This document shows, one piece after another, positions 4,597 to 52,625 of a stretch of DNA of 53,011 nucleotides. Each line of letters begins with the position of its first letter. The first letter of the stretch is position 1. The stretch lies in contig JAHJDH010000009.1 of assembly GCA_018812625.1 (NCBI GenBank), positions 1-53,011 on the forward strand, read 5' to 3'. The translations under genes and the position numbers were made by a program. This DNA comes from Microcaldota archaeon (GTDB lineage: Archaea > Micrarchaeota > Micrarchaeia > Anstonellales > Bilamarchaeaceae). The notes under the pieces were generated by a model. That model was not told the origin of the DNA. It ran no database searches and saw nothing but the letters and a program-made list of their open reading frames with translations.

Positions 4597-4841
4597 AATT
4601 CATCCTCTCCAGACCATTCCCAGTTCCCTAGTTCGGAAACCGATATCACTGCAATTTTTTTTGGTGTGCCCTTTTCTTCTTCAACTATTGAAATCTTTTT
4701 CTCGCCTTTTTTACGGGCGATTTCAACAAGGGCAGCTATTGTATGTTTACCGCGACAAATAAAAAGTTCTTTCTTTTCTTTGGCAAGTCTATGTGCCAGT
4801 TTCCTGCTCTTTTCTGATGCATATCTGCTAGTAGTGAACAT
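4593..4841 (-). CDS. Short Brix-domain protein (ribosome biogenesis)
   Basis: The opening MFTTSRYASEKSRKLAHRLA and the later FICRGKHTIAALVEIA match the start of archaeal Brix proteins (hTTSRxPS...; NRGKxS). Archaeal Brix is related to eukaryotic Imp4 and is thought to help rRNA folding during subunit assembly. Family members are usually about 150-190 residues; this one has 82 and stops soon after the strand KKIAVISVSELG. The gene context (rpo12, pcc1, prefoldin beta) is the canonical one, so it is a reduced orthologue rather than a random ORF. No frameshifted remainder is present, since pcc1 follows at once with a 4-nt overlap. Confidence 0.72.
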   Translation of the reverse strand: MFTTSRYASEKSRKLAHRLAKEKKELFICRGKHTIAALVEIARKKGEKKISIVEEEKGTPKKIAVISVSELGNWEWSGEDEL

Positions 4842-26503: not shown

Positions 26504-29500
26504 TTAGCTATCTCCAGATTCTCCTATCACTCTGCTCAATTCACTTCTGAAATATGCTTGTCGTGCAGCAGGATCCATTGTCGCATGATTTTCTGGCATG
26601 CGCATTTCGTATATCGGACCGCCTTTGCCCCTTTGGAATCTTACTACTCTGGTCTCTCCAACCTCAAATGTTCCGCGGTAAGCAAGTGTCCTTGGCGTTA
26701 TTCCTTCAATTCCAAGTGAAGAGACGAAATCTCTTGGGTTTGCTCCGATGATGTCTATCGGATTTGCAGCTAATCTTGTTTCACCTGGCGGAGCAGCCTG
26801 GCGTCTTGGTCTTGCAGAAGCCGCTGGCAACTGACCTGGAGCCTCTCTAGGCCTTGGTCTTCCTACCATAATCTTAATTACAAGTGTTGGATGTGCCATT
26901 CCATCTGCGCCAATAATATTTTGGACCATTGCAAAGCAGTTGGCTCTTGCTTCTGAAGTGTCCGGAATCTCATGGCTATGCACTGCCTGTGCGACGAGGT
27001 CATCAAAGGTAAGCTGATCTGCAGTTCTTCCAGTTCGCTCCATTGCTTCATGTACAATTGGCGATCTTGTAAACTCAGGATCTGCTATGAGTCTATGTAT
27101 TCTGTCCATCCTTCTTTGTGCAACACCGATACGCAATCCAGGAGCCCCACCAAGAATTCTTCCAACTTCCCTAATTGGTACAATGGCAGCACCATGCCTC
27201 AGTGCAATTGCTGCAGGCCTTCCGGATACATTGCCAAAGTAGCCAGGCTCTTCAGCAACTCTTTGCAGTACTGTTCTTATTGCAGTTCTTCCTTCCCTGC
27301 TGCTTGGATCAGCTCCAAGAAGCGCAAGTCTCAGTCCGCGTGGTGAGTCACTGAATGTTGCAAATCCAACAATCTGCCCCTGCGCATCTCTTGCTACAAG
27401 CAGATGCGGCATTCTTGAAATAAGATCTCGTGGATTTTCATATCTCAATCCTACTCCTCCATAAGATGCTTCATAAACTGCAAGAACATCATCCATTATT
27501 GCGCTTCTTTGATCTGCCGGTACTGCTTCCCATGGTCGTCGGGTAGTTTGCTCAACAGTAACATCAAGACTAGTCAGTCCGCTTACCAGCGCCCCTGTAT
27601 CATGTGCTGCAATATCAGCGACAGCTGGCTGAACAGTTGTTGCATCTACAGCTCCAGGAGCAGCTGGCCTTTCAACTTGCAATCCTACAAGATCTGTTAT
27701 GTGCGGACTTACTGAACCATCTGCCTGAGCAACTGCTGAAATTCTTCCAGTTGTGGTGTCTAAGGTTAATCTAAACTGCCTGCTTTGCGCTCTGATTTCT
27801 GCAGGCACTGATGCTTCTGCTCCAAATGCCCGAATTCTTCCGGTTGTTCTATCAGCATATCCAGTAACCTCGATAGTATTGCCAACTCGTCTTCCAGCTA
27901 GCATAGCTTCACTGAATGTGCCAGTTACTCCATGTGCTGCTGTGATGCTTCCATCATTCATTACAATAAATGCATTATCTAGGCTAACTCTTGTTGGAAG
28001 TCCATGCTCTGGTTCTCTTGAATCAAAATGTTGCCTTACTGGTCTTCTTGCGCTCATATCTGATCCTGCAAGTGCAGTTACATAATCAGTTCTGCTCAGT
28101 AATGGCGATGTAACTTCTGTACTTGCAGGTATGGTTGTAGTGCTTGCTGCTTCTGGAACTGGGGGAGGAACTGCTCTTGGAGCAGCATGCTGCTCTTCAA
28201 GCACCTGCCTTGCAACTCCTTCAAGGAATCTTCTTCTTGATGCTGGATCTGTTGGAAGTCTTCTGCTTCCAATAATCCTCCGCATTCTCATTATTTCTGG
28301 CTGATGGATTCTTGCTCCGCCTCTTCCTTCTGCAGCTATATACCCTTCATATCTTCTTACTGTCTGGGCAATATCTTCAGGTCTAATTGTTGCCGCTGCT
28401 TCTGGAACTGGTGGAGGTACTGCCCTGGTTCTTCTTGCTGCCTCTGGAACTGGAGGCGGAATTACTCTTACTCTTTCTCTTCTTGCAATAACTGCAGATG
28501 CCTCATCAGCAATAATTCTTGCACGTGCTTCTTCTGAAAATACAGGGTTTTGAAGTCCTTCTCTAATTCTTCCAACTGCTGCCCTGTATTCTCCAGGTAT
28601 TTCTGCAGTTGGAATTTCTGATCTTGCAATTGTATCTAGTGATCTGCTAACCCTGCTAAGTGGACTCATTGGATCATATGTTCTGCCACCAGTGCTTCCC
28701 CTACTAACAAGTGCCACTTCCAGCGGCATATTTGATCGTATTCTTCCAGCAGCATTCTCAAATTCTATTGCAGTTCTAGCTTGTCCAGGAATTCTCTCAA
28801 GACTGTGTCCTGCAAGGTGCTGCAGCAGAGCAGGCCCAGTAAGTTCTGCTGGAATGTATGTTGCTACTTCTGCTCCTGCAACATTTATGAAATATCTGTG
28901 AGCTCTTCTTCCTCCACTTTCATATGTTCTGATTGCTCCGCTTGGATCAACTTCTGCCCGTACGCCAACTTGTGCAAGAGCACCTTCAGCAATTCCAAGA
29001 ACTGTTTCAGGTGTTTGCAATACTCCTAATCTATGCATCCTGTCAGTTGCAATTCCAATTCTGTTTGTGAGTACCATTCCTGTTGCATCGACCTGGTGTG
29101 CTGTTCCATCAGTTGTAATGATCCGGACAGGTGCCTCACGAGCTGGATCAACATGCATAACTCCTGGAGTCTCAGTTCCACTTCTCCTATAAACTCTGCT
29201 CCAGCTGCTGTCATGATTATAAACGCCTGGCATCTGTTCTCTTACTGCACCGCCTCGCTCATGACCAATATGCAATTGCAGTCTTGTTCCCTCTGGCAAG
29301 CCAAGTGAATCTGCCATTGAACTCATCCAACCTGCTGCTTCTGGTGTGAGCTGCCCATCTGCACCCTGGAATCTTGATTCCCAGTGGCTTCCATAAGTTG
29401 TAGTGAAATTTCCGCTTGAATAAGCTCCACGCATCACTTCCATGGCAAGTCCCACTGGAACAACCACATTGCTTCCCCATGGATTATGAACTGTTGAAAA

Positions 29501-32500: not shown

Positions 32501-35500
32501 GAATCCTGGGTCTCCTGTTCCAGCATCTGCTCTTGCCCTTGCTTCTTCGGATAAGAGTCCATCGCGAACTCCTTGCCAAAGCCCGCCCCATTCTGCTTCT
32601 CCCATTCCTCTCATATGCTGGAATATTCTTTGCGCGCCTGCTTCCCTTGTATTTAGAATTCCTAATCTTGCTTGCAGATGCTCGCTGCCAATAATATCAT
32701 TTCCTTGTCTTCTTATTGGTTCTGCAGCTCCTCTGCGGGCTTCTGGAATATCCTCAGCTCTTCTAAATACAAGATATTCAGAATCCCTTGAAATTCCAAG
32801 ATTCAAATCAGTTGCTCCTTCTATTCTCCGAAGGCGCGCAACTTCTCGCCTTGGTATTCCTGATAATGGAAGTATATGTACTTCTACTCCCTCAGGTATT
32901 ACTGCAAGTGCAGGAATGTTTCTAACAGAAATTAATTCCCCTTCTCTTCTAACTCCAATAACTCCTGATTGTTGGGCATCAGGAATTCTTCCAAGGTCAT
33001 CTACTACCAAATATCTTCTTCCACCTGCAGTTCTAAGATCTCTAACTTCTCCGCTTTGGCGAAGTTCACTGGCAAGTGCCCTTCTTTGTCTAAATGAAAG
33101 ATGGTCTACTGGAACCAAATACCTTGCCTGCCCTTCTGGTAAAACTCCTCTCATTGCTCGTGTTGCAGTTTCCCTTATGATTGGTGAAGATGAGATTCTT
33201 GTTCTTGATCTGAATGTGCTTCTTCCATCAACTCCATCTATTGTTGTTGATCCCTCACCATTGAGTGGACGTCCATATGCATAGTACCCATTACTTTCCA
33301 TCCGTCCAAGGTTTTGTCCAGAAACTTCATCTCCCATTCCTGATCGCTGTCCATTATATCCATCAATCAGGCTTGTCATTGCTTCGCTAAATACTCTTCC
33401 CTGTTCCGTTGTTGGTGCAAACTCACTGATCCATCTTCTCATTCCACGGACAAATGGGCCATCCATACCCGCTCCAAATGCCTGTTGAATAACACCCTCA
33501 ACTGTTCTGATTACTGGCTCTCTTCCAGCTGCAGTTGCTGTTCTTAGTTCAGCAGAATTCATTGCATATGTCATGTGCACAAATAATCTGTGAAGATCCT
33601 GAGTGAACTGATCTCTCATTGCACTTAGGTCAACAGTTCCATCCTGCCTGACTCGTGCTCTGTATGAACCAAACGTATCTGTATCAATTGCACCGAACCT
33701 GAAGAAACTATAGCTTCCATCATCATTTTGTCTTACTCTGTACCCTTGACTTTCCAAACTATGTGCTACTCTAGCTGCTTCTGCTGGAGGCGTGTTTCCA
33801 ATTCTAAGCCACATTGTCCATACGTTTAATTCGTGACGGTCATAGAATCCTGCTGCTGCAAATCCTGTTTGTGAATAGCCAAGCTCTTCAAGGAAATTTT
33901 CTGGATGCGCTGCAAGTTCTGCAAATAAGGTCTCTCTTCTTGCCTGGGTTGTTGGGTCACTAGAATCAAATGGAATACTATGGAATTCATCTGCAGCATC
34001 CACAGTTACCTGAATCCGTTCACCACCTGCAGCAATTTCGCCATGGAAATCACGAAGGTCTCTCATTATTCCATATTCTACTCTTCGGCCTAGTGCTCCA
34101 GTATATGAATAGTCTGTTCCATCTGCTTGCTCTACATGTGTTCTTGGAGCAGGAGCACCAGTCAATACTGTTCCTTCAGCACCAATAGAATCCGGACGAA
34201 GTCCCTGGCGTTTTGCAAACACCATCATACTGGTTCGCTCAACCCCTCCAGCATCTGTAAATGTTCTTACCTGACCTGCAGCATCAACAACTTGTATCCG
34301 CATTCTGTATGCTCCAACAAGACCGTTTTGGAAATTGACCTGATTAATTATTATCCTATCAGTTGGAGCAAGGCCTTGGATGTCTGGGCGCACTAATGTT
34401 TCTACTTGATGAAGGAGATCTCCACTGAGAATCATTCCAGCAAGGAACGGATCATCTGCAAGAGTGGTGAAAGATTGGTAATCTCTACTTCTTACTGATG
34501 TGGGCGGAAGTTCTCCCAACCTGATTCCAAGAGTATTATAAAGTTCTGCGCGAGCTTCAGTTGTGTCTATCCCTCTTGCATATGCTGCTTCAAGCTGTTC
34601 TCTTGGAACTCCATACATTCTTGAAAGCTCCTGCCCAACTTCTCCATGAAGTCCGCGAAGTTCAGTAAAGTATCTTGCTTCAGAGTGATAATAATCTGCA
34701 TTGGCGCGCAGTGCAGTAGCGTGGAGTAATCTTGAGCTTACAGGAGCTCTTAATGTTTCAATTTGTTCGTGTAATACTCTTGCCTGGCGTCTTAATTCCT
34801 GTGGTTGCAGCATAAGTTCTCCCGCTTCCTGGCGCAATCTTTGAGCTTCTGCTATGTTTCCAGCTCCTTCTGCTACATCTGCCCTTCTTCTAAGTTCTCT
34901 GATTTGCGGATCCATCTGGGCGCTAAGCTGTTCTGCCTGTGCCTCTAATTGTGTTGCTTCTCCATTTAGTCTAGTTAGTTCACTTTGCATTTGCTGTTCC
35001 AGTTGTCTTGCTTCTTGCTCCAGTCTTGTTGCTTCCTGCTCTGCCGGTCTTGCCCGCTCGCGCAAGCTACGTATTACTGTTTCTCGATCTGCTACGCTCA
35101 TTTCTCTAAATGATTGAACTGCTCTTCGTCTTCCTGAACCAAGGTCTCCAGTTCTAATTATTCTAACTGCTTCTTCCGCAGTTACTGGCGCATTCATTCT
35201 CATTGGAGCTCCATCACTTAGCATGACTTCTGCTCCCTGGAATCTTTGTAAAACTGGTGTCCATTGTTCTGCAGGAGCTCCTTCCTGAGTTGGTATCCTT
35301 GAAATTTCCCTACGGAACCTGCTTCTTATTGTTGTCTCTAATCTTGATCTGGCATATGCTGCAAATGCATCTCTCATCCTTGATGTTGGCCAGCTCACTT
35401 CTCCAATTGCTGTTTGCGGATCAACATTTGTTAATGTTACTCTGTCCCTGAAAATTCTCACTTCAAATGTTTGCTCTCCCATCCGTACTTGTGCAACAAT

Positions 35501-38500
35501 ATGCTGTTCAATTGCACCATGAGTTTCTCCTGCAAATTCGCTGGCATACACAATCCTTATTGTCTGTGGAGCTGCCTGACTTTCAAATTGTCTTAGCATC
35601 ACTGCTCCATGCAGATAATCCAAAGGAGTTGGAGTATCAGAACCACTTTGCTCAGCACTTGCTCTTGCAAGTTCCTGGACCATTTCATATCTGTTTCCTG
35701 CATCTACTTGCCTTGGCCTTCTTCCTGTTCTAACTTGCTCTGCATAAGTTCTTGCTTCTGCAATTACATCTGTTGATCCTGTTTGTTCAACCAGTCTTCT
35801 TGCAATTCTTCTAAACTGTGCTGCTCCTTCAATTATTCTTCGCCCCTCTGGACTTGAAACATCTGGCACTCCTCTTGGAGTTACAACTACTCCCCCGACT
35901 ATCGTTCGTCCTCCTGGAATTGTTGAGGCTGCCGGATCCATTCCTCTTGCTCTTAAGTATTCAATTACTACAACATCAACCGGGTCAGTTGGCACATGTC
36001 CTTCTTGTGCAGATCTATATATCCCCTGGACAGTTTCAGCTTCCAATGCCCGAGCTACTCGTTCTGTATGTTCCGGAGCTATCCTATGTCTTTGACCCCA
36101 ACCAGATCCGCTGATGGCCTGTGCAAATTCAACAACCTGTTCTCTGACTCTTGGAGGCAGGTTATTCAGTTCTCTTCGCCGAACTTCTGGAGCGCTATCT
36201 ACTCCATATCTGAAATGATATGCAAATTCTATCAAACCATCTGGATTATGTGCAAGTTGTGCTGCACGAACCCTTCCTGCATATTCTGTAATTATTGCTT
36301 GTTGTGCAGTCGTATCGCTTCCAGCTTCTCCCATTCTTCGAACGAAACTGTGCATCTGATCTCGCACTTCAGGAATCATATCATTTATTTCTAAAACTAC
36401 TGTATCTCTTGTAGCAGGATTTGCATATCTTCCTGCAATATCTGTTAAGTTTCCTTCCATTGCAACTACTGCATCAGGCTCTGCAACTGGAGCTGCACGC
36501 CTTCGATCACCTGGAGCTCTTCTTGCTGCTTCCGGAAGTGGGGGTGGTGTTGCTGGTGCAGGTTCAACCAATTCAACATCTGCACTTGTTAATGTAATTG
36601 GTTCTGCGTCGGTTGGTGTTCTAATTGCTTCTGGCTCAACAACAGTAGCTCTTCTTCTTGTTGGTCTGGCGTGTTCTGGTACTGCGTCTGATGGAACCTC
36701 AGCATCTTGTCTTAGTGTAACTTCCGCATCCGGTCTTCTTACTGTTGGCCGGGCATGTTCTGCTACTGCTTCAGGTGGAACTTCGACTGATCTTCTTGGA
36801 GTTGGTATCTGATCTGGCGGGACTGCAGTTGGTTCTCTTGGTGCAAGGCTTGCTTCTGCATGGGCAAGCGCAACCTGAGGATCAGTTCCTCCTGCGATTT
36901 CTTCAAACATTCTGTGTGTTGCTTGCCAGTTTGCTCTTTGTTCTGCGCTCATATGCGGCAGAACAGTTTCAAGAGTTGGTGCGCTCATTTCAATTCCAAA
37001 GTGAGTTGCAAGTGCCATGTCATGCGTGAAACTTCCTTCTGCTCCAATATCGCCCAAAAATCTGTGAGTTCCAGAAAGCATATCAAATCCAGTTTCTGTT
37101 CCAAGTCCCTGTACTGATCGAAGTGCCTCTGCAGGACTTCTGAAATACCAGCTTGATTTATCTGAATATTCTGAAAGCATTGCTCCTTCTCTCAAAACAA
37201 ATGCACGATCTTCTGCGCTCATTCCCTCGAGCATTGTCCTGTATCTTCCAAGAGGGGAAGGATCAACACTAGATCCTTCTGTTCTATCATAATAAGTATG
37301 AACTCTTTGTGCAGCTGCATCTCCAATTACTGCAGCATCTCCAGCATGTACTGGTGGCTGGGCTCTTGGTCCAAACAAACTTTGTTGTCCTGCAGCAGCA
37401 CCATCAAATGGAAATTCTGTTCTCTGGATCATTGCTTCTGCCATTGCAATTTCCCGGTCTCCCCATCCGAATCTTTCTCTTAACATCTGCTGTCCGCTTT
37501 CACTTCTCATCCATTCCAGAGTGGCAGGAACACGCGGCGGCCTTCCAGCTGCTCTTCCTGGATCAATATCATGAATCAGTGCAACCTGGCTTAGGAACTG
37601 TGCTTGTTCTGGTGAAAGCCCTCTTGCAATTGCAAGCTCATGTGTCATCTGCGCAGCGTTTCCAGTGTGCGCCCTATCATGATATACTGGAGTTCCATCT
37701 GTAGGCTCAACATGCAAAGCGCCATCTCCAGCTGTTGTACTCAAAGCTTCAAATTCTGGATATCTTCCTCGTGTAAATGGACGAACTTCTCCAACTGAAA
37801 GCGGTCCTGTTGCTTCCTGAATTGGAACTGCTGTTGGTTCTCTTGGAGTTCTGCTCGGTGCTCTTCTGGGTGCTCTAGGTGCAGGCCGCGAAGCTCCAAC
37901 TGCTACTGCTTGTTCTACTGGAATGACACTGCTTCTTCGAGGAATTATATGTATTCCAGACTGCTCTCCAATCTGGTGCAATACTCTTGTAACTCTTCTT
38001 GCTTCTGCTCGGTCACTCATGCCGGCAATATAATCTGCAACTCTGCCTCTTCTCTCTGCTGCTGAAAGTCCTGGACTTCTTTGGCCTGCAACTTCCATAC
38101 TAAGGAAGTTGTTTAACAGCTCCCGGGTTGTTATTGTCTGCCCCTCAGGTATTTGCAGTACTCCTCGCAAAACAGTATCAAGTGCTGCATATTCCTCTGG
38201 CGCTCTTCTTGGCACTGTTACTCCATCTCTTCTTGTCCAAAGATGCTCTGTTAGAACAATTCCTTCGGCCATTCTCTCTGCCATATTTACCTGAACATCT
38301 GCAGTAACAGGACCTTCATATGGAAGCACATCGCCTGCATTTATTCTCATCTGTACTTGTGTTTCAAATCCTCCAACATCAAATATTACAACATCTCCAG
38401 CTTGTCTTTGCACCCCACCAATAACCTGATCGCGTGTCAAAACTGCAAACTGGAAATCGTCAATATCATGTCCTGAAGCTGTGACTGCATCCCACATTGT

Positions 38501-41500
38501 TCTAAGCTGCTCATAAGTATCTGGTGTTACATGTGCCTGAATTTCTGATGGAGTCATTTCATCAATTGATCTTCCATGAATTCTATCCATTGCAATTGCA
38601 ATATTTCCATCAACTTCTACAAATCCATGGACTGCTGGCCCAAGTGTTACTTCTCTGCCATCTGGCAAAGTAACTCTCATTTCCGAAAGTGTTCTAAATG
38701 CATTAACTTCGCGTTGTGCAACTCCCAGTAAATGTGTCCAGTCTGCATCTGTACGGCCAGCGCTTGAATCCGCAGGAGTCGGATCACGGAAAACTTTTAC
38801 TGCAACTTCTGTTGGAACTCCATCAACCATTGCCTCTGCGCGGAATATGGCTGCAGAGGATCCTCCGCTTTCCGGAGTGTTGTCTATTCTGGAAAGTATC
38901 CTTGCTCTTGGAGCATCTCCTAATCTTACTGTTGAGCCATCTCCTTGTGTTACTTCCCCATCAAGTATTGCTCTTGGAGCCCCACTAAATTCTGCATCTC
39001 CAGATGCCCTGGTTGCCATGGGACTTGTGACATCTGGCCTTACCTGAATATCTGCAACACGTGCAATAGCAGCTTCTCTGCTCATTCCAGTTGCCATAAG
39101 CTCTGAAATTGCGCTATGAAGAGCTTGTCTTTCTACACTTGTTACTGTTGCTTGGTCAAGTGCAGTAATTCTTTGAACTTCAGCACTGATTCTTTGCTGC
39201 GCTCCTGCATCAGACAATGTAATTCTGTGATCGTCAAATCTTGCTCTGATCTGGTCGCCATCCTGGATTACCAATCTTCTGAATATTCCTTCCATCTCGC
39301 GTCCGCGTGCCCCGCTAACTCTGCGGCGAAGTACGCCTATAAGATCTTCAAAGTGTCTTATTGTTCCAGGCTCAATATATCTTCCGCCGCCTAAAGCTCC
39401 TGGTATTCTTAGTTGTCCATGGATAAGATCAATAATTCCACTATCTCTAAGCTGCCTGTAACCTTCTGCTCCAAATATTCTTGAAGCTGCAACTTCATCA
39501 CCAAGAGCTATTGTACTTATTATTGCATTGGCAAGTTCATAATGTCTTGAATGTCCGTTCCAGTCTGTTCTTCTTGCTGGATCAGTTCTTCTGTCAACTA
39601 CATGATCGACTAAATGAGTATTCATAACATGCGCAAGCGCCTCTTCTCCTGTGATGCCATGTATTGTGCTTGAAGCTGGAGCCTCGCCTGTTGCTGTTGT
39701 TCTGACACGGAAACCTATTCCATCTCCTGATAACTGTGCATTGATAGCTGCGTGCAGTCTTGCAGTATCTGCAGCAGTTCCGCCTTCTACTACATATTTC
39801 ATGGTTCCAAGTCTTCGGACTCGAAGTCCTCTGCTTCTTGCATATTCAGAGCTTTGGAAACTTGCAACTCCTGCTTCTACAGATGTAATTACCATATTTG
39901 TTCCAGGATGTCCAAAGAACGTGTTCAGTCCGCGGATACCAAAGCTGTTTGCCAAAACCTCTGCAATTCCTTTGTGTGTTTGCGGAACATACCCTTCAAT
40001 TTCTGCAAGAAGAGTATTCAATTCAGTTACATCCTCTCTATGAACACTCAAACGAATTTCAAGTGCTTCACCAGATACTATTTCATCTGGTCTGACATTT
40101 ACTCTTTCTCTTGCAACCTGTTCAATTGCACGCTCTGCACTCATTCCTGTTTCTGTCAGTTCATTTACTCTTGCAACTATTGCAGCATCTGCTGGAGTCA
40201 GCGTTCCCTCTCTTCTTGCATAAATTCCTGTTACTCTCTCTACTTCTACTGGTTCAAGTCCGCGAACCATATCCATGCTTTCGCCAACGCCCATCCTTGC
40301 TCTAAGTCCATCTGGTCCGCTTGCAAAGCTTGGATCATCAGCCCTACTTAATGCAGGTCCGATAATTTCAGAAACAGGTGCCCCATCTACTCCAGGCCTT
40401 ATTACTGCTGCATCTGCTACTTGTCCATCTGCTCTTGTGTATGTTGCACTTACCGAACCATCACCTGACCTTCGTAATCTTACAACTCCTCCATATTCCA
40501 AAGATGCAGAAACAATGTCTCTGGGGTTTGCCATCAGGTGTCTAAGATGCCCTAGACTTTCTGGGTGATCTGGGGCCATACGCTCGGCCATTACTCTTGT
40601 TGTTGCCTGATCAACTGCAGCTGGCAGCGCATCAAGAACTTCCTGACCTCTTCCCCGCGGGACAATGATTATTCCCATTGCTTCATCGCTGTTAGCAGGC
40701 CTAACAAGGAATGCATGTCCGCCTTCTCCAACAGCATCACGTGCTGCTTGCTGCAATATTGATCTGTAAGCTTCAAGACCAGATGTTCCATTATCAAATC
40801 CAATAAGTTCATTGATCTGGCCCAGCCTGTGTTTGTCTCCGGTAAATACAACTATGTCTACTTCCTGTCCAGCTTCAATCTGACTGCGTGCATATGCATC
40901 AATTTGTGAAAGTGCCATTCTTGTTGAAACCGAAACCTCGCCAATTCTCTCTCCAGCAACAATCCATTCAACATCTCGTTCAGTTGTTCCAGAGCGTCTT
41001 AGTAATTCTTGTGCAATTACAGAGTCTCCAAGAGCAGTTGCTGGAACTGCTTGTTCTACTACTGTTACGCGGCGTGCAGAGCCTACTTGTTGTTCTGGCG
41101 TTGCCACAACTGTTCTTCTTCTTGCTGCTTCAGTATGCAACATTTCTCCAGTTTGTTCCAGTGCAGCAGCAGCACGTCTTCCATATGCTGTTCCGCCTTC
41201 ACGAAGAGCCTGTGCTTGTACATGTCTGCTTTCAGCAATATGATCAAGATCTGCTGGAGCTAATTCCGTATCTCTCATATATCCAATTGCTTCTGCTCTT
41301 GCATTTGCGATTATTACTTCTGGTTCATTTGCAATTGCATCCAAGTTACCTGCCCGTCTCAAACCAAGTTCAAGCTGTGCAGTTCTATTGGGCCCGCCCT
41401 CAGCAGTAGTTGCCCGAATAAAATCTCCACTAATTGCAAGTTCAATTGCACTATCCCTCATCTCTGGCCTTACATGTCCTAGTGCATCTCTAATTAGTGC

Positions 41501-50500: not shown

Positions 50501-52303
50501 GGGGAGATGATCCGGATGCTCTGCAAGGTCTGCTCCAAGAGCGGCAAGGTCTGTTCTGTATTCACTATCACCATGCATGAATTCGTCTGCAATAAATTGA
50601 AGTGTTTTTGTTCTGTCACTATCTCCTTCTTGTAAATATGAATCAAGAACAGCACCAAAAAGTCCTGATGCAGTTGCTTTAGCCGCCTGTTGTTCTGCTG
50701 TTGCAGTTGGCATGTCTGCAAGAGTTCCTGCAATCTGCACTGCAAGTTCAAGTGCTCCTTCAAGTCTTTCATATTCCTCGCGTGTTACTGAACTTGGATC
50801 TGTTTCAAGCCTTTGCCGAAGGGCTTCCATTGCATCTCTCAAGTTCGTGTATGCGCTGGCTAATTGTTCACTATCAGTTTCTTCTATTGTTGCATTTACA
50901 TCTGCAATGTTGTTTGCAAGAGTTTGTATCCTCTCATCTGCTCCGGCAGCTGCTCCGGTTCGAAGTTCTCCAAGTCTTCTTGAAATTGCATCAATCAATC
51001 CTGAAATTCTCAGTCTGGTTTCTCTTGTATACTCAGTTCCAGGAGCAATTATTTGTTCTGCCAGCTGGACAAGTGATTGGCGCATTCTTTCTGCTGCTTC
51101 TGTTCCAAGTATCTCATGATTTTGAAGATAAGCTATTCCAATATTGAGCAACTGTCCTGCTCTGGAATTTGTGCCGAATCTTTCAATTCCGGTTCTTATT
51201 GCCGCAACAAGCTCAGCAGGAGCATTAGCTTGCTCAAGCAGTCCTGGAACAACACTGTTTTCAAATGTTCTAATGTCATGTGCAAGTTGTCTTAGTTCTT
51301 CTTCTGTTACTTCATCTGCAGTTTCTGCTTCACTCAATTCTTCAAGCATGTCTTCGGTTCTTTGCTGAAGTTCATGAAGGCGCCGTTGTTGTTCTTCAGT
51401 TAATTGCTGTGTTGCTAAAAAACCTAATTGCTCGTGATATGTTTCTACGTATCCCATTCTTCTGCTTGTGATATTCCCATGAGCAGTGCGATAATCTGTT
51501 TCAATTGCACGAAGTCCAATTTGCACATCTCCAGCAGTCATTGTTCTTGATGCATCTACAAAAGTTCCTAAAGTAGCTAAAAGATCAGTTCTTTGTTGTT
51601 GGTTATTCGGATGATCATAAACTGCCCGGTTGGCTAAATAGTGATTGATTCCTTGTATTGCACCTTCAACACGATGTTCTGCCCGCGGAGGGCCATCTTC
51701 ACTAGTTCCAAGAAATTGTGCTGCTCCAACTACTGCCTGATTAAGTACTACTCCTGGTTCTCCACCAACAGTTGCAGTTTGCCTGTGCAATTCCATAAGA
51801 GAAGTTACGCCAGCAACATCCCGTCTTAAAGTTTCGAACTGGCCAATTGCTTCTGTTCTGACTTCCTGGTCTCTTGATCCAGATGATTCTATGATTTGTT
51901 GGGCTCTCTGGTCAAGAAAATTAATCTCTGCACTCCAGTTGTGTCCTGCTATAACCGGTCCCTGAATTGCTCCGCCTTCTTCTCGTGTTCCCAATTGCTC
52001 AAGGCCTTCACGAAGGCTTCGTGCTACTCTTGGCAATTGTCCTGATGTGATCGGTGTTGTGCCAGGCTGCCTTAGCCATTCACTTTGCTCTCTTAATTCA
52101 ACAAGTCCCTGCTCAAGATCTGCAACTACCAAATCCATTGGCCTTTGTCCTGGAGCAACTCTCTCCGGAACAATCGGAGCAATTGTTGTTGCTGCTGCTC
52201 CCAAATCTCTAAGTGCCTGGTCTACTGGTGGTGCTTGATCCACAGGTGCTGTTTGATCTGGTCTTTCTCTTGTTGCCTGTGCCATCGAATCACTGGTAGG
52301 CAT
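26504..52303 (-). CDS. Giant multidomain protein, about 8,599 residues, lysine- and cysteine-depleted
   Basis: One open frame of 25.8 kb. Residue ranges are approximate. Residues 1-2150 are helical, rich in Ala, Glu, Gln and Arg. Hydrophobic segments lie at about 2165-2195, 2305-2335, 2377-2431 and 2454-2488. Then come tandem 188-residue repeats (3353-3727), GGDEF-like folds (about 3771-3890 and 4080-4190), a kinase-like fold (4465-4668), an HD domain (4868-5020), a coiled coil (5735-5888), a PPP phosphatase (7328-7706) and a GNAT-like segment (8257-8391), separated by Pro-rich linkers. No signal peptide is seen. I count about 15 Lys and 2 Cys (near 1002 and 8456). The start may be the second Met (52285), 4 nt after the upstream stop. 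The overall function is unknown. Confidence 0.9.
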   Translation of the reverse strand: MPTSDSMAQATRERPDQTAPVDQAPPVDQALRDLGAAATTIAPIVPERVAPGQRPMDLVVADLEQGLVELREQSEWLRQPGTTPITSGQLPRVARSLREGLEQLGTREEGGAIQGPVIAGHNWSAEINFLDQRAQQIIESSGSRDQEVRTEAIGQFETLRRDVAGVTSLMELHRQTATVGGEPGVVLNQAVVGAAQFLGTSEDGPPRAEHRVEGAIQGINHYLANRAVYDHPNNQQQRTDLLATLGTFVDASRTMTAGDVQIGLRAIETDYRTAHGNITSRRMGYVETYHEQLGFLATQQLTEEQQRRLHELQQRTEDMLEELSEAETADEVTEEELRQLAHDIRTFENSVVPGLLEQANAPAELVAAIRTGIERFGTNSRAGQLLNIGIAYLQNHEILGTEAAERMRQSLVQLAEQIIAPGTEYTRETRLRISGLIDAISRRLGELRTGAAAGADERIQTLANNIADVNATIEETDSEQLASAYTNLRDAMEALRQRLETDPSSVTREEYERLEGALELAVQIAGTLADMPTATAEQQAAKATASGLFGAVLDSYLQEGDSDRTKTLQFIADEFMHGDSEYRTDLAALGADLAEHPDHLPAVLQALRTRLAAQAESVLGNIQDPAIRERLQGLIPDEGEVNIRNLFLARQAITLAESVVQDIQTEEDVGIRQSAYRMVNRAIDALAQGLLSISASQIMLAKEYVSSPEEREQIAMLSDRQQDAMHVGLMQILITPPQGQEAVTIEEAARRVAGEEGAQRAIAAYRRRREGTLGDIRESVRPRVLSEAQVARTEWQQASEVLDQIHTRVMALTDGTEEHPGQALSAAAIGNIIQEVLGEEASREQVMFFANLYQSEFDVFARGMAMSGTRAVSEVATYFRLGRGLERMATMDRSRPPGLISSAIIEARGSFETIRTRLANGDYISEELNRRTGAIETAMLGDRQTGAPDLLSRVRGIRDRRHREDVRTAYQNGISTLANFDEPGSLQLGLSLLDAAAAVETCRDAVDRDLMSTLINARMSGDIEQADYQSQMDILIAKTQAVEELRGVTGIPRAQRQIYERNMAAYFDLAFHAQRSGQPQQARAVIMLIGLYGDAIEARAAGGDTSAADENIAFVYRQLGDLSSVRELRTRRFTDIGHATAGLPGRPGRSAWEVDPSRIPGEYTAVVLGEPESAEATAARSRRLRSELITRRSTIQISGVGRRLDRILEHPETQYGREQQRLERSIAQEEAAAVRYERLAERSSGATRERHTRSAQQRRERVVRLRRQLELVDRSWLEGAVSGLRDSSTEQFLQVAQVQRRALAEEEAGHDELSVSLFRQSEAIGDQADAPVTALEDLDRSIRQLNTPWMHRTEGREELRSGIDIVLAVQRGQNIDPQTGEVIEGELSDRRSAALSRLATRRMVMGSRMVDRQFAAQRARDASAHSLRQQITAAEQTTAAPAEDASPSAVQRARREAAARRQETGDPQPGVASNFQVPVPGTVAPEEEEGAIAVAEGGYWAPTVDGGSMWVEGQSSPFEFQGPVQPPAETRGIYSDDIVPTLRRALSATYSLNFSYASGLQRTASQLLAAGDSSLEALATAEELGILRGGLGRPRPDGRIDPSPFRDQRRPPGTGPVVRAGYRTTPLLGGAEAPYDPDATILDLEGVLAVNFGIADHISAGTLTGDAADTAIADSTELVRSRAGRERLYIQEGISWLTGSGLRQRGDELLPSRIPTVAELQATNPQMGIGEAEQEIGRMRAMTSVGGIRATADDMRLAGQEHLDAARDYRGARERYEGNSAFGEARVALAPEVLRVAEEGHLSAELLEQARTEGGSELGAVEWLAQNHGEAFDRALTTAGTSAWPGGLLPRFGSRGAAFSDLRARLSAASGQAIQQRNEPVWLAVEWTATEGESAFRDHDTLVAGLDSMRRTGGSVDLSGLAGTGARFWALADSLGGFLTTQDQTTEEQERSVRQFRDAREGTMSLRLGELRIAYGPESARTHAHSGVEEVFLVPEIEEQVLRGARTRIMLTSGSTGPLSFLADESASRWTLFSDRYRDGSARPESEWVPEERAAYYGLYRSHLQAAWRSLGVSPLSHDERSTMVEEFLEGRGYVRDTPQWNMARTAALTGTLGRAAAHALLMPETPASLALARQVRTDVSEQSEMLMGALMNIEAYRWSRMGMAGTTAWAGAKEAFSSDWAYASMPLVVGAIDLFGGREWRTGDVRESAERDQQQVDQAERVDADMMFGALADQARDTYLAVRAANDLDLTNTEVTGRVSSELGRLRMRMRAATPSSTPRIGESEEGLLHRYVQSGNIQRSGNQLLETVGDIGIGIALMPINPLAAGAYFFTMTAHGTVERVSHARGAEYIGTSYAETGFWRHTFGMSHEGAGSAVRGLMYAELGLAFFGALATPELAISRTAHGVIGIGQIVPGIALGGLQMTQMLDWDAMARAGSGSAWSSIMSGGMQLQQGVSGMDVFAAGIGVSMQFVQMGLAHLGPALGIRARTMADIDINNPAAVRSVLRPSLARRILYGNIGVSLDSGSPAATTGLMVERTRSVRRLSGRDADALVHFEQTHAARVMGEEGLVGVLSEHASATHRLGRDTVDGYDPANPSGRIAELAASAREKQASGGRLTRDERAAIVITESPITRQRLVDAEAGRLLQLRGQGEVPAADAPAIQHLDQQARRRARSAGREEPTAGDYRDAAQDISGTSMVARELSDAAAGSPAAMEIDQVAHGLGITREEASFRLARQMRDADRVNETYTGMTAHDVQDALVLHGDGEVTPQLIEAGGRLRAMLAGEADIPIEHRPLVQSLLARAANGEDSIRIIAIGTEAMLTTESRVSRMRARQSRLDETHALISFARQDSGTGEYVVSRSSTIETRHSRASMEVGAEIVIAARRMAADDTITAASLFPDSPAMQRAASDVASRIAGANEQGAPLTNLQQLSAALDHAGSLPQARARMEAGQGAEHLDQLALSSRQRADAIDPQRTPVTAPESMPAAERPAYVAAETSSRRLEVQRLREQAGAYEAEAVRIRAEAEVTAPGSETVVAGVAAASRVSAAIREQRILGEMIIWQRELSRSHVVIGDGEGARYHPRNPATLRQRAEVLSERASMLTAEGTAESRTEAARLTREVVALRREATEMQRLGTPVGEVGAGLTQEELNVHGTVAVLAERLIRHGDVPAGMPPEAERVVRALAARSEFRDSVTGSSPNRARQMELAAEAVPALRRTEGTETRPALDHEALGTRVHEVVERNTTPGLTEGQVVTRAQQLAEAYELGPGISIDDRNRLGILRGDMQFLQRLGSEAELNIANEIATRATYQTVQRLRIRARRTATPAQPQVAPQPAVTTTVDTPAVAYRRQFEPLVQRSGEGLGTRYTLGDGPAAIAYEEIHFRAGVELVRHAEALRTAHPNYHELPPQRRAEVLQEVLGSVPAAMRDQAGQLAQDRTFIAASGETPNRRMQLGVALDRAGYVPAIAGRPEVIRATARGEAIRLVEGGASAEQLQTFARQRREQADTMTNPDRVAALRESATYLDAQGLRLFEHAQAEQFTITGEGTGRRYVLGSGDQAIDYIPAHVTAGNELVYHADAAISQVLHDHPNLAQYSTARREALIRDALGHVRPEMRDSAIELAISGDFIRATTAEGGPNRTAQLELGLRRAGNLDAIANEPEVIIANARAEAIGYMRDTELAPADLDHIAESRHVQAQALREGGTAYGRRAAAALEQTGEMLHTEAARRRTVVATPEQQVGSARRVTVVEQAVPATALGDSVIAQELLRRSGTTERDVEWIVAGERIGEVSVSTRMALSQIDAYARSQIEAGQEVDIVVFTGDKHRLGQINELIGFDNGTSGLEAYRSILQQAARDAVGEGGHAFLVRPANSDEAMGIIIVPRGRGQEVLDALPAAVDQATTRVMAERMAPDHPESLGHLRHLMANPRDIVSASLEYGGVVRLRRSGDGSVSATYTRADGQVADAAVIRPGVDGAPVSEIIGPALSRADDPSFASGPDGLRARMGVGESMDMVRGLEPVEVERVTGIYARREGTLTPADAAIVARVNELTETGMSAERAIEQVARERVNVRPDEIVSGEALEIRLSVHREDVTELNTLLAEIEGYVPQTHKGIAEVLANSFGIRGLNTFFGHPGTNMVITSVEAGVASFQSSEYARSRGLRVRRLGTMKYVVEGGTAADTARLHAAINAQLSGDGIGFRVRTTATGEAPASSTIHGITGEEALAHVMNTHLVDHVVDRRTDPARRTDWNGHSRHYELANAIISTIALGDEVAASRIFGAEGYRQLRDSGIIDLIHGQLRIPGALGGGRYIEPGTIRHFEDLIGVLRRRVSGARGREMEGIFRRLVIQDGDQIRARFDDHRITLSDAGAQQRISAEVQRITALDQATVTSVERQALHSAISELMATGMSREAAIARVADIQVRPDVTSPMATRASGDAEFSGAPRAILDGEVTQGDGSTVRLGDAPRARILSRIDNTPESGGSSAAIFRAEAMVDGVPTEVAVKVFRDPTPADSSAGRTDADWTHLLGVAQREVNAFRTLSEMRVTLPDGREVTLGPAVHGFVEVDGNIAIAMDRIHGRSIDEMTPSEIQAHVTPDTYEQLRTMWDAVTASGHDIDDFQFAVLTRDQVIGGVQRQAGDVVIFDVGGFETQVQMRINAGDVLPYEGPVTADVQVNMAERMAEGIVLTEHLWTRRDGVTVPRRAPEEYAALDTVLRGVLQIPEGQTITTRELLNNFLSMEVAGQRSPGLSAAERRGRVADYIAGMSDRAEARRVTRVLHQIGEQSGIHIIPRRSSVIPVEQAVAVGASRPAPRAPRRAPSRTPREPTAVPIQEATGPLSVGEVRPFTRGRYPEFEALSTTAGDGALHVEPTDGTPVYHDRAHTGNAAQMTHELAIARGLSPEQAQFLSQVALIHDIDPGRAAGRPPRVPATLEWMRSESGQQMLRERFGWGDREIAMAEAMIQRTEFPFDGAAAGQQSLFGPRAQPPVHAGDAAVIGDAAAQRVHTYYDRTEGSSVDPSPLGRYRTMLEGMSAEDRAFVLREGAMLSEYSDKSSWYFRSPAEALRSVQGLGTETGFDMLSGTHRFLGDIGAEGSFTHDMALATHFGIEMSAPTLETVLPHMSAEQRANWQATHRMFEEIAGGTDPQVALAHAEASLAPREPTAVPPDQIPTPRRSVEVPPEAVAEHARPTVRRPDAEVTLRQDAEVPSDAVPEHARPTRRRATVVEPEAIRTPTDAEPITLTSADVELVEPAPATPPPLPEAARRAPGDRRRAAPVAEPDAVVAMEGNLTDIAGRYANPATRDTVVLEINDMIPEVRDQMHSFVRRMGEAGSDTTAQQAIITEYAGRVRAAQLAHNPDGLIEFAYHFRYGVDSAPEVRRRELNNLPPRVREQVVEFAQAISGSGWGQRHRIAPEHTERVARALEAETVQGIYRSAQEGHVPTDPVDVVVIEYLRARGMDPAASTIPGGRTIVGGVVVTPRGVPDVSSPEGRRIIEGAAQFRRIARRLVEQTGSTDVIAEARTYAEQVRTGRRPRQVDAGNRYEMVQELARASAEQSGSDTPTPLDYLHGAVMLRQFESQAAPQTIRIVYASEFAGETHGAIEQHIVAQVRMGEQTFEVRIFRDRVTLTNVDPQTAIGEVSWPTSRMRDAFAAYARSRLETTIRSRFRREISRIPTQEGAPAEQWTPVLQRFQGAEVMLSDGAPMRMNAPVTAEEAVRIIRTGDLGSGRRRAVQSFREMSVADRETVIRSLRERARPAEQEATRLEQEARQLEQQMQSELTRLNGEATQLEAQAEQLSAQMDPQIRELRRRADVAEGAGNIAEAQRLRQEAGELMLQPQELRRQARVLHEQIETLRAPVSSRLLHATALRANADYYHSEARYFTELRGLHGEVGQELSRMYGVPREQLEAAYARGIDTTEARAELYNTLGIRLGELPPTSVRSRDYQSFTTLADDPFLAGMILSGDLLHQVETLVRPDIQGLAPTDRIIINQVNFQNGLVGAYRMRIQVVDAAGQVRTFTDAGGVERTSMMVFAKRQGLRPDSIGAEGTVLTGAPAPRTHVEQADGTDYSYTGALGRRVEYGIMRDLRDFHGEIAAGGERIQVTVDAADEFHSIPFDSSDPTTQARRETLFAELAAHPENFLEELGYSQTGFAAAGFYDRHELNVWTMWLRIGNTPPAEAARVAHSLESQGYRVRQNDDGSYSFFRFGAIDTDTFGSYRARVRQDGTVDLSAMRDQFTQDLHRLFVHMTYAMNSAELRTATAAGREPVIRTVEGVIQQAFGAGMDGPFVRGMRRWISEFAPTTEQGRVFSEAMTSLIDGYNGQRSGMGDEVSGQNLGRMESNGYYAYGRPLNGEGSTTIDGVDGRSTFRSRTRISSSPIIRETATRAMRGVLPEGQARYLVPVDHLSFRQRRALASELRQSGEVRDLRTAGGRRYLVVDDLGRIPDAQQSGVIGVRREGELISVRNIPALAVIPEGVEVHILPLSGIPRREVARLRRIEGATDLNLGISRDSEYLVFRRAEDIPEARRGAAEPIRRQGNDIIGSEHLQARLGILNTREAGAQRIFQHMRGMGEAEWGGLWQGVRDGLLSEEARARADAGTGDPGFLTRRVPNPRAVEQLPPEYGGPTRAMHPEPTMEVGSADILPGSGDVSPPPIEVTSADILQESVTPPSVPRPVAAPREAAGIHTAATAPLPEMLISPESIPTMPRTTRRRVEPVVPLAPDSTARVSTGTLERHVQQANLDPRRAQYLRAHQQGTELNLGTLENAQILFGDRSGARSGIVGELDQAIAHGMQRPVPAGATEDTGIPVGAYFDPQSGRIVAIIEETGSLSSIPRSIRENGDLAVIDISVDRTTGRITRILQRPNRLVTAGVTETSHAALTGLVGMQVTEPRPPTPPSGGGPRRRGSGPGSDTGAPTVRIVPEARSSDVQALADSLTTGSLVADFARRIVQGDESAIAILRSEHMEPMVRGEVRGLLRDGEFVAAARTAGSSGEVSLGLPYRRYLQQHQQLLEQRAQRIQRHTGAPEAEAQIMEVPIAIGAEGDVVGVVVRPDQVHEVTEITGPRAMSGDRARVQPDAVAGLVANVERLSGQPVDISTRGGRDIARVRELMQQGRSLEDAAGIAISERPPANIYELSTRARALYEIAEGLLIPDQRAAAQERYRGLTQAEKEAVEYMLADGGEYLRGTREDRLLIAEQFGEHIDLEISTGTRDIPGTGRLNELARLADQMVHGNETERAQARRTLDQQALIFSAGEARAYGRFYTLMRQAGSRVPPADYVRTYQQSTRRLPPEQFRSRAEFEQYVASVESTSRDLVYVDAQGVEHNYVTVVQDSRQTFVVGDIHGEHQVFDHMVNIGILQDGGAHLPIAERYSLHPDLPQGTDIVFLGDYIDRGPSSLDVLQVVRQLQEEAGARGIRVHTLRGNHESLFLRFHEMFGNSSFADVQRALAPLDSSVTEALMAARTPADIQAAVSGLERFDLSSHFTEAEAAAYARHGVDVSDTTLAEIGLELNRVGIAETVEEITTRYQAAYDQRVQSDPAFRTLTESGQMDIWRFAMGEMRDSGLIGFIQETQGAVIIDNNLYTHAGPNLAAGSPEAMSQAFGDMFSTVHNPWGSNVVVPVGLAMEVMRGAYSSGNFTTTYGSHWESRFQGADGQLTPEAAGWMSSMADSLGLPEGTRLQLHIGHERGGAVREQMPGVYNHDSSWSRVYRRSGTETPGVMHVDPAREAPVRIITTDGTAHQVDATGMVLTNRIGIATDRMHRLGVLQTPETVLGIAEGALAQVGVRAEVDPSGAIRTYESGGRRAHRYFINVAGAEVATYIPAELTGPALLQHLAGHSLERIPGQARTAIEFENAAGRIRSNMPLEVALVSRGSTGGRTYDPMSPLSRVSRSLDTIARSEIPTAEIPGEYRAAVGRIREGLQNPVFSEEARARIIADEASAVIARRERVRVIPPPVPEAARRTRAVPPPVPEAAATIRPEDIAQTVRRYEGYIAAEGRGGARIHQPEIMRMRRIIGSRRLPTDPASRRRFLEGVARQVLEEQHAAPRAVPPPVPEAASTTTIPASTEVTSPLLSRTDYVTALAGSDMSARRPVRQHFDSREPEHGLPTRVSLDNAFIVMNDGSITAAHGVTGTFSEAMLAGRRVGNTIEVTGYADRTTGRIRAFGAEASVPAEIRAQSRQFRLTLDTTTGRISAVAQADGSVSPHITDLVGLQVERPAAPGAVDATTVQPAVADIAAHDTGALVSGLTSLDVTVEQTTRRPWEAVPADQRSAIMDDVLAVYEASYGGVGLRYENPRDLISRMPHLLVARDAQGQIVGFATFSDSPRGLRLALLGADPSSREGRTAIRTVLQRVAEEPGYFGNVSGRPAAIALRHGAAIVPIREVGRILGGAPGLRIGVAQRRMDRIHRLIADPEFTRSPIVHEAMERTGRTADQLTFDDLVAQAVHSHEIPDTSEARANCFAMVQNIIGADGMAHPTLVIKIMVGRPRPREAPGQLPAASARPRRQAAPPGETRLAANPIDIIGANPRDFVSSLGIEGITPRTLAYRGTFEVGETRVVRFQRGKGGPIYEMRMPENHATMDPAARQAYFRSELSRVIGESGDS
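27130..27535 (-). other. Giant protein: GNAT-like segment near the C-terminus
   Basis: Residues about 8257-8391. HLLVARDAQGQIVGFATFSD, then LRLALLGADPSSREGRTAIRTVL, fits the central strands and acetyl-CoA helix of GNAT enzymes, but the RxxGxG/A motif is weak (SSREGR). The call is tentative. Confidence 0.4.
27676..27985 (-). repeat. Giant protein: TTGRI-type domain, copy 2
   Basis: A beta-rich unit starting LDNAFIVMNDGS, with ADRTTGRIRAFG, then LDTTTGRISAVA and ending HITDLVGLQV. It is clearly related to 31655-32040 and flanks the PPP phosphatase region on the C-terminal side. Confidence 0.55.
29185..30320 (-). other. Giant protein: PPP-family (calcineurin-like) phosphatase domain
   Basis: Residues about 7328-7706. 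All metal and phosphate motifs are present: FVVGDIHGEH (Asp7338, His7340), FLGDYIDRGPSS, TLRGNHESLF, LYTHAGPN and HIGHERGG. The first three match the GDxHG, GDxxDRG and GNHE set of Ser/Thr protein phosphatases and bis-tetraphosphatases. A long helical insert sits between GNHE and THAG. This is the best conserved catalytic domain in the protein and is probably active. Confidence 0.8.
31655..32040 (-). repeat. Giant protein: TTGRI-type domain, copy 1
   Basis: A beta-rich unit starting LENAQILFGDRSG, with DPQSGRIVAI, then VDRTTGRITRIL and ending ALTGLVGMQV. The same order occurs near 27676-27985. Confidence 0.55.
34640..35100 (-). other. Giant protein: coiled coil
   Basis: Residues about 5735-5888 are a continuous helix with heptad-like Leu and Ala spacing, for example EATRLEQEARQLEQQMQ and LTRLNGEATQLEAQAEQL. 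Arg takes every place where a Lys might be expected. Confidence 0.65.
36480..36850 (-). other. Giant protein: Pro-rich linker with short repeats
   Basis: About residues 5152-5275. The linker repeats EHARPTVRR and EHARPTRRR, PDAEV and QDAEV, and ends PPPLPEAARR. Closely similar PPPVPEAA units recur near 28130-28450, and PREPTAVP occurs at both ends of the HD region. The linkers separate folded units. Confidence 0.6.
37240..37700 (-). other. Giant protein: HD-type phosphohydrolase domain
   Basis: Residues about 4868-5021. VYHDRAHTGNA supplies the first His, and ALIHDIDPG carries the HD pair (His4911, Asp4912); a later Asp in HAGDAAVIGDAAAQRVHTYY fits the last ligand. The order H...HD...D is that of the HD superfamily, which hydrolyses phosphate esters, often nucleotides. 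The metal site looks intact. Confidence 0.6.
38300..38910 (-). other. Giant protein: protein-kinase-like fold
   Basis: Residues about 4465-4668. The N-lobe has a Gly/Ser-rich loop (ESGGSSAAIFRAE) and VAVKVFRD with Lys4503 at the ATP-binding position. A C-lobe follows with MDRIHGRSIDEM, a catalytic-loop-like GHDIDDFQFAVL, and VVIFDVGGFE in place of DFG. It resembles atypical or aminoglycoside-type kinases. Activity is uncertain because the loop residues are shifted from HxDxxxxN. Confidence 0.5.
39730..40075 (-). other. Giant protein: GGDEF-like fold 2 (degenerate)
   Basis: Residues about 4077-4192. IRGLNTFFGHPGTNMVI matches the GGDEF segment that reads FKxLNDxxGHxxGDxhL (Asn4127), and 40 residues on, in the normal place, RLGTMKYVVEGG replaces R-x-GGDEF-hhhhxG (Thr-Met-Lys at 4167-4169). 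Asp/Glu of the signature are lost, so diguanylate cyclase activity is not expected. A nucleotide-binding or purely structural role is more likely. Confidence 0.5.
40640..40990 (-). other. Giant protein: GGDEF-like fold 1 (degenerate)
   Basis: Residues about 3771-3888. VDIVVFTGDKHRLGQINELIGFDNGTSGLEAYRSI matches the GGDEF pattern in which a metal-binding Asp and FxxxN are followed by a G-(H/F)-x-x-x-x-x-L helix (Asp3823, Asn3831). The signature position reads GGHAF (3861-3865). The spacing from Asn is about 30 residues, shorter than usual, so the call is tentative. Confidence 0.4.
41123..41683 (-). repeat. Giant protein: 188-residue tandem repeat, copy 2
   Basis: Residues about 3541-3727. It opens FTITGEGTGRRYVLGSGD and contains EMRDSAIELAISGDFIRA, then GPNRTAQLELGLRRAGNL and PEVIIANARAEAIG. 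Two more diverged copies may lie upstream, around FRDSVTGSSPNRARQMELA and NLQQLSAALDHAGSLPQA. Confidence 0.7.
41684..42247 (-). repeat. Giant protein: 188-residue tandem repeat, copy 1
   Basis: Residues about 3353-3540. It opens FEPLVQRSGEGLGTRYTLGDG and contains AMRDQAGQLAQDRTFIAA, then TPNRRMQLGVALDRAGYV and PEVIRATARGEAIR. The same order occurs in the adjoining copy. Confidence 0.7.
44840..45375 (-). other. Giant protein: cluster of likely membrane segments
   Basis: Around residues 2305-2490, long runs free of charge appear: IGIALMPINPLAAGAYFF, then GLMYAELGLAFFGALATPE, then GVIGIGQIVPGIALGGLQM, and VFAAGIGVSMQFVQMGLAHL. This could be a membrane hairpin set that splits the protein into two soluble parts of about 2,200 and 6,100 residues. 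Gly and Met content is high, so buried helices in a soluble domain remain possible. Confidence 0.5.
45715..45810 (-). other. Giant protein: first hydrophobic segment
   Basis: The segment AYASMPLVVGAIDLFGG (about residues 2180-2196) is moderately hydrophobic and marks the start of the membrane-like region. Alone it is too short to be sure of membrane insertion. Confidence 0.35.
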
Positions 52304-52625
52304 AACAAATATTAGCGAACTCGCCCAAGCGTTCTACGCGTGCATAAAAATCCATTCCCTTTCCCGGATTTTTGAGCATTTTCTTTTCCCATTGTGCAAG
52401 CGCATCATGATATCTTTTGTATTTCATAAATTTTGGAGCAAGATCTTCTGGTTTGTCTTGTGCACCATCCCATTTTGCAATTGCAGTTTCAAGTGCAGAG
52501 AGTGCCCTGTTTACTTTTTGTATCGTGTCTTTTTCAATAAGTTCAATGTTCTTTTCAGTAACTTTTGTTGCTCCGCCAGGCCCGCGCAATTTTTTATTTT
52601 TTTCAGAGGTAGAAGATTTAACCAT
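52290..52625 (-). CDS. Small lysine-rich helical protein overlapping the giant gene
   Basis: I do not recognise this 111-residue protein. The first 20 residues are basic and probably disordered (SSTSEKNKKLRGPGG), then helices follow, including IQKVNRALSALETAIAKWDG and YHDALAQWEKKMLKNPGKG. It has about 17 lysines, the opposite of the giant protein whose ATG lies 14 nt inside its end. An AGGGTG ribosome site precedes the ATG. The overlap implies one transcript and coupled translation, so the product may be a partner of the giant protein, for example a chaperone or regulator. That is inference. Confidence 0.65.
   Translation of the reverse strand: MVKSSTSEKNKKLRGPGGATKVTEKNIELIEKDTIQKVNRALSALETAIAKWDGAQDKPEDLAPKFMKYKRYHDALAQWEKKMLKNPGKGMDFYARVERLGEFANICYAYQ

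Follow-up and report, generated by a model that had tools for sequence, protein, structure and literature searches.

We report here a giant archaeal protein of 8,599 residues in which, as judged by comparison of sequences, the avoidance of lysine is shown to act at the level of the protein, to spare those lysines that are invariant among homologues, and to recur across the genus. Its gene lies in a window (the whole stretch of DNA that was analysed, 53,011 nucleotides) that is contig 32 of a 1.27 Mb draft assembly from a Microcaldota archaeon (85% complete, with an estimated contamination of 1.3%); open reading frames were called mechanically throughout, and the features discussed are collected in Table 1. 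The archaeal Lon protein of this genome matches Micrarchaeota, with 75% identity at best, and the genus is probably Bilamarchaeum. The initial annotation had judged by eye that the protein holds about 15 lysines and 2 cysteines with arginine very common, an estimate matched by the exact count of 15, 2 and 929 (arginine making up 10.8%). The lysines sit at residues 542, 566, 702, 1038, 2174, 2611, 3824, 4111, 4169, 4503, 5049, 6031, 7167, 8477 and 8560, and the cysteines at 1002 and 8456.

Typical genes of the genome encode 7.9% lysine, 4.5% arginine and 1.2% cysteine (1.23 of the 1.27 Mb compared), against which the giant is an outlier; an ordinary lysine content, which would have refuted the annotation, is not what we find. 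A genome-wide bias from lysine towards arginine would have been equally damaging, and fails in turn, with the median K/(K+R) standing at 0.66 and some 620 lysines thus expected among the giant's 944 lysines and arginines. The binomial probability of such a deficit (log10 P of about -402) should be taken to mean ‘not chance’ and nothing more, as residues are not independent. The longest runs without lysine extend over 1,309, 1,212, 1,135 and 1,135 residues, satisfying the published definition of a lysine desert as at least 150 residues that lack it (PMC10665810); by a definition based on half of the sequence, no single run spans half of the giant.

Table 1. Features of the window, lysine-free proteins with signal peptides elsewhere in the genome, and lysine-free giants of sister genomes
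Feature	Position	Strand	Extent	Remarks
Giant gene	26504..52303	minus (complement)	8,599 codons plus stop	single open frame
Partner gene	52290..52625	minus	111 aa	15% Lys; overlaps the start of the giant by 14 bases
Domain A	39224..41041	minus	residues 3755-4360	probably tandem GGDEF-like; K3824, K4111 and K4169 invariant
Kinase-like region	38264..38896	minus	residues ~4470-4680	K4503 in VAVK; inferred, motif by eye
HD-phosphohydrolase-like region	36854..37711	minus	residues 4865-5150	K5049; inferred, HD motif by eye
Domain C, predicted atypical kinase fold	33194..34726	minus	residues 5860-6370	K6031, DRHxxN, IDxD
PPP/calcineurin-like phosphoesterase domain	29189..30340	minus	residues 7322-7705	Pfam PF00149 (E=1.9e-7) and homologues
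Domain D	26852..27538	minus	residues 8256-8484	by eye acetyltransferase-like; all three homologues have lysine at K8477
C-terminal domain	26537..26782	minus	residues 8508-8589	FHA-like by eye; common to the G001 lysine-free giant
Lysine-free protein	C35:49934		420 aa	6 Lys in signal peptide, then 0
Lysine-free protein	C8:6429		700 aa	6 Lys in signal peptide, then 2
Lysine-free protein	C13:26061		640 aa	7 Lys in signal peptide, then 4
Lysine-free protein	C28:5631		1,026 aa	3 Lys in signal peptide, then 1
Lysine-free protein	C35:5877			5 Lys in signal peptide, then 5 in 2,825 aa
G001 giant			4,507 aa	5 Lys
G015 giant			7,297 aa	38 Lys; orthologue at ~30% identity
G005 giant			3,377 aa	11 Lys
G008 giant			3,101 aa	10 Lys

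The deficit does not originate in the nucleotides. Out-of-frame AAA and AAG triplets are at least as frequent in the gene as expected from codon shuffling, and its synonymous codon use correlates with that of the rest of the genome at 0.97, while a second giant of the genome contains 6.3% lysine, from which it follows that the amino acid and not the DNA is being avoided; the earlier assertion that AT or GC drift cannot account for the lack of lysine therefore stands. An origin in mutational bias, avoidance of AAA and AAG, shortage of tRNA-Lys, recoding or foreign descent is scarcely credible, given that lysine codons are also present in the adjoining partner gene (17 in 111 residues, just as had been claimed) and in the signal peptides of other lysine-free proteins, and that invariant lysines are kept; no evidence in support of such a cause was found. 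Composition and codon tests rule out foreign codon usage, AAA/AAG avoidance and a genome-wide Lys-to-Arg bias, whilst loss or shortage of tRNA-Lys is excluded by the lysines in the signal peptides of the very same proteins. From its codon usage the gene looks resident, and since sister species carry such giants too, a foreign contig is unlikely. Lysine auxotrophy is also unlikely: the genome uses 8% lysine, and related lineages are reported to synthesise lysine, arginine and cysteine (PMC8561730), as is the order Anstonellales (PMC12892359).

Selectivity is most evident in the columns that could be aligned to at least three lysine-normal homologues. Where lysine is optional in these homologues the giant has it in 0 of 227 columns, and where lysine is invariant it has it in 4 of 5 (residues 3824, 4111, 4169 and 6031); for arginine, serving as the control, 95 of 289 optional and 10 of 11 invariant columns are retained. 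Lysines that avoidance spares in this way are probably catalytic. Outside the test, K4503 is matched by lysine in its single aligned homologue and K5049 in both of its own, residues 542, 566 and 702 are lysine in two lysine-normal homologues and not in the lysine-free orthologue, and K2174, K2611 and K8560 look incidental. The initial annotation had placed some of the survivors in motifs, which is supported for K3824 and K4169 (invariant) and, on one homologue, for K4503, but does not extend to the three incidental residues. Positions that are lysine in the lysine-normal homologues are arginine in the giant in 20% of cases, the rest being mostly E, Q, A, T, S or G; across the lysine-free proteins the corresponding share is only 20-25%, which rules out replacement of lysine by arginine as the full explanation.

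The domains that hold these residues are recognisable to differing degrees. Pfam returned nothing above its cut-off for the giant except the metallophosphoesterase, in which the GDIHG, GDYIDRG and GNHE motifs are present (GDxHG, GDxxDRG and GNHE being expected); remote versions of other domains are not excluded. Domain A gave only a weak structural match without a significant E-value, its best neighbours being GGDEF domains, and the HD-phosphohydrolase-like region has homologues at 34-49% identity. Domain C is the most widely shared among giants, with K6031, DRHxxN and IDxD invariant in 12 sequences. Its predicted structure (pLDDT 80) has PI3K, VPS34, CotH, PI4K, CtkA and APH as neighbours, all at low TM-scores, including the PI3K-like structures, for which E is nevertheless about 1e-3. 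If this model is correct, K6031 is likely to be the ATP-binding lysine of a kinase fold, with DRHxxN and IDxD fitting its catalytic loops. Neither Rfam nor a tRNA scan gave any match in the window.

Lysine-free giants are encoded by at least four sister genomes (Table 1), so that the desert is shared by the G015 orthologue and by giants of G001, G005 and G008, which answers the check suggested earlier of whether giants in sister genomes have it too; because these relatives were picked for their homology to the giant, the counts give no genus-wide frequencies. Cysteine behaves differently: all giants of the family lack it (about 0.1-0.2%), lysine-normal ones included, and only some lack lysine. 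The joint depletion described earlier is thus real for both residues, but that of cysteine is a separate trait and a coupling to lysine loss is unsupported.

In G015 a lysine-free and a lysine-normal giant share one contig and are sisters in the domain A tree (support 100/99). The two are 64% identical over an alignment of 740 columns, yet 18 of the 22 lysines of the normal copy are not lysine in the other (12 are arginine), compared with a change of 33% at other residues (Fisher P 6e-6); lysine content therefore follows the protein and not the ancestry of its domains. When polarised with an outgroup, six informative sites indicate gain of lysine in the normal copy and one its loss from the desert copy, although this rests on the single pair that has an outgroup. 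The earlier suggestion that all free lysines had been removed accordingly survives as to their absence and is doubtful as to ‘removed’; the pattern suggests, on these few sites, an exclusion that is maintained and not necessarily a recent removal, for which ‘kept out’ is the safer expression. A species tree built from a single protein was weakly supported, and no claim made here rests on it. The family also contains a mirror image, a protein of 2,004 residues (G031:C116:7282-13293, L069) with 258 lysines (13%) and 21 arginines (1%), encoded amongst ordinary neighbours.

The giant is not alone in its own genome. Among 777 proteins of at least 150 residues, encoded on 1.01 Mb, about a dozen form a separate tail of low K/(K+R); these include a protein of 2,888 residues and a GDSL hydrolase of 799, their genes 3 bases apart, further proteins of 2,874, 700, 641, 297, 257 and 221 residues, a piece of 1,026 residues at a contig end, and others. 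Pfam, run on most but not all of the lysine-free proteins and on both giants of the genome, found mostly nothing, the exceptions being PPP phosphoesterase, GDSL lipase, HEAT and TPR matches. No earlier report of such a class was found in the open-access literature.

Several members begin with a lysine-rich Sec or lipoprotein signal peptide (called by a hydrophobicity rule of our own, not by a trained predictor), after which lysine nearly stops (Table 1), and in a protein from sister species G001 four of five lysines fall within the first 50 residues. Single reading frames hence display both states, divided near the expected cleavage point, which argues against a cause in translation, and because lysine is confined almost wholly to the signal peptides the constraint concerns the mature exported chain. 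Saying this, 135 of 149 predicted exported proteins contain at least 1% lysine, which rules out any rule that all exported proteins lack it. The giant itself begins MPTSDSMAQATRERPDQ, with the second ATG (52285) as an alternative start, and has no signal peptide, there being no hydrophobic stretch near this N-terminus.

Some smaller features of the class, and of proteins outside it, may be recorded here. Seven of 12 lysine-free proteins have MAQ among their first 70 residues, compared with 7 of 931 others; it stands either at the beginning or just after a signal peptide (for example at 52285 in the window and at C28:858, C34:2778 and C8:4449). Two lysine-free proteins, C8:4449-8528 (L098) and C13:26061-27980 (L127), are possibly beta-barrel-like, with and without signal peptides; one of them has a sub-threshold match to an outer-membrane beta-barrel family, in an archaeon. 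Large surface-type proteins at C6:3-9092, C25:7187-12106 and C30:8528-15931, with 12-13% asparagine and little lysine or arginine, belong to a different composition class.

The gene that overlaps the start of the giant belongs to a family of its own, with no Pfam match, 21 matches in the contigs sampled and a median of 11.5% lysine. In 18 of the 21 the next gene encodes a giant or a lysine-free protein at -37 to +17 bases (161 in G001), in two (G015 and G008) a giant follows whose chosen start overlaps the partner, and one, at the end of contig 15, immediately precedes the start of a lysine-free protein whose remainder lies on contig 4. Whilst the relatives' contigs were chosen for holding giants, the giant's own genome, searched almost whole, shows the same pattern, with further copies at C6:14386-14742, C35:28062-28379 and C15:72809-73084. 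Chaperone-effector pairs of bacterial secretion systems likewise place a small gene immediately before that of a large protein with many domains; that the partner here may be a dedicated chaperone or export partner is an inference. Unlike those pairs, the partner matches no known chaperone (none by Pfam), no secretion system has been identified, and the family precedes lysine-normal as well as lysine-free giants.

That lysine is selected against in the mature chains of a partly exported class suggests an agent acting on lysine at their place of work. We propose, tentatively, that these proteins do their work away from the cell that makes them, probably on a host or inside it, where they avoid lysine-directed tagging or cleavage; this may well be right, but we stop short of expecting it to be, and both destination and agent are inferred. 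The giant, in which no signal peptide can be recognised, would need a different way out, perhaps with the aid of its small partner, most likely to a host or a neighbouring archaeal cell; there, ordinary proteins would be marked by SAMP/Urm1-type ubiquitin-like conjugation and passed to the proteasome, a fate that an almost lysine-free chain would escape. The PPP phosphatase and the kinase-like, GGDEF-like, HD-like and acetyltransferase-like domains would be in keeping with an effector of several activities, one that rewires signalling in its recipient. We favour evasion in a recipient archaeal cell because archaea are known to couple ubiquitin-like isopeptide tagging to proteasomal degradation (PMC4895103, PMC4569737) and because pupylation and ubiquitylation have been connected with lysine deserts (PMC10665810, PMC10169902). 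The column test with its arginine control, the division at the signal peptide (including that of the sister-species protein), the deserts of at least four sister genomes, the tie of lysine content to the protein, the normal codon use and out-of-frame triplets, and the partner beside the giants are all in keeping with this. Against it, export of the giant has not been shown, the same genome also encodes giants of normal lysine content that have this partner and related domains, an outside location is evidently insufficient given the many exported proteins that keep lysine, and the arginine-poor G031 giant is left unexplained by lysine tagging.

That last protein would be better accommodated by the main rival, escape from a lysine-specific protease (of the Lys-C or Lys-gingipain type) that is met at the cell surface or comes from a neighbour, as its composition (21 arginines, 258 lysines) could answer an arginine-specific protease. 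Such an enzyme would also account for the tolerance of arginine and for the confinement of the desert to mature exported chains; we nonetheless hold it to be unlikely, as lysine-only specificity is uncommon and lysine is retained by most of the genome's exported proteins. Tagging might instead be avoided in the producer's own cytosol, where a slow-folding giant would otherwise be tagged and destroyed, and the genome does encode proteasome subunits of alpha and beta type and an E1/ThiF-like protein; a search of it for an E2 gave no match, but no control matched either, making the result uninformative. This we regard as quite improbable, since a second giant of the same genome (C6, 6,342 residues) contains 400 lysines (6.3%) with almost no cysteine, the class includes small exported proteins, and the signal peptides, whose first location is the cytosol, are rich in lysine.

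A biophysical or chemical cause, in which arginine-rich chains poor in amines and thiols bind or assemble better, pass more readily through an export channel or better withstand electrophiles, aldehydes or cross-linking, would fit the high arginine content and the near absence of cysteine. N-terminal glutamine, which is able to cyclise, would fit as well, being preceded by an xA site in 4 of the 9 exported proteins that lack lysine and in 8 of 192 others. We see little likelihood in it all the same: the low share of arginine at homologous lysine positions implies that arginine is not the aim, and cysteine is equally rare in lysine-normal giants. Tagging evasion could be widened to a ‘delivery proteome’ of giants and smaller proteins, poor in both lysine and cysteine, with almost no primary amine or thiol, and acting in or on a host where ordinary proteins are tagged, cross-linked or cut, its N-termini perhaps blocked and its giants made together with the small lysine-rich partner; we offer this only as a doubtful extension. 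If it were true, composition alone would mark the destination of a protein.

Lysine deserts are known from components of the ubiquitin-proteasome system and from pupylating bacteria and phages (PMC10665810, PMC10169902), and resemble the giant in their long, conserved lysine-free stretches, in which arginine and other residues take its place and which are believed to guard against tagging of lysine. The present case differs in that it concerns an archaeon (archaea are not mentioned in PMC10665810), spans thousands of residues and includes proteins with signal peptides of which only the mature chain is affected, and in that a tagging system has not been demonstrated. The SPEARE giants of Nanohaloarchaeota (PMC10266531) are comparable in belonging to DPANN archaea, in their size (8,880-9,409 residues) and in being thought to act on a host; they differ in their Sec signal, Ig-like domains and VirB4/TraG-like ATPase, and lysine depletion has not been reported for them. 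Our giant lacks an N-terminal Sec signal peptide and carries signalling-enzyme domains instead, Pfam finding neither the ATPase nor Ig-like domains in it (remote versions are not excluded). The giant open reading frames of Omnitrophota (PMC10066038) are also enormous and poorly conserved and belong to ultra-small, probably host-associated cells, but are bacterial, with transmembrane and adhesion domains and no mention of lysine.

Lysine avoidance turns composition into a label that can be read: it singles out a group of proteins, in an uncultured archaeon of symbiont type, for which a common destination or a common enemy is probable. This would make the action of DPANN archaea on their hosts testable, in terms of which proteins leave and what attacks them, would carry lysine deserts into the archaea and up to thousands of residues, and would provide giant enzymes that are naturally almost free of lysine.

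A separate locus of the genome (C23:16348-22345, L106 and L223) holds an E1/ThiF-like gene followed by genes for a 95-residue protein and a PHP-type protein; it lies near membrane proteins and a VirB4/HerA-like ATPase (identified by eye), possibly representing a secretion system.
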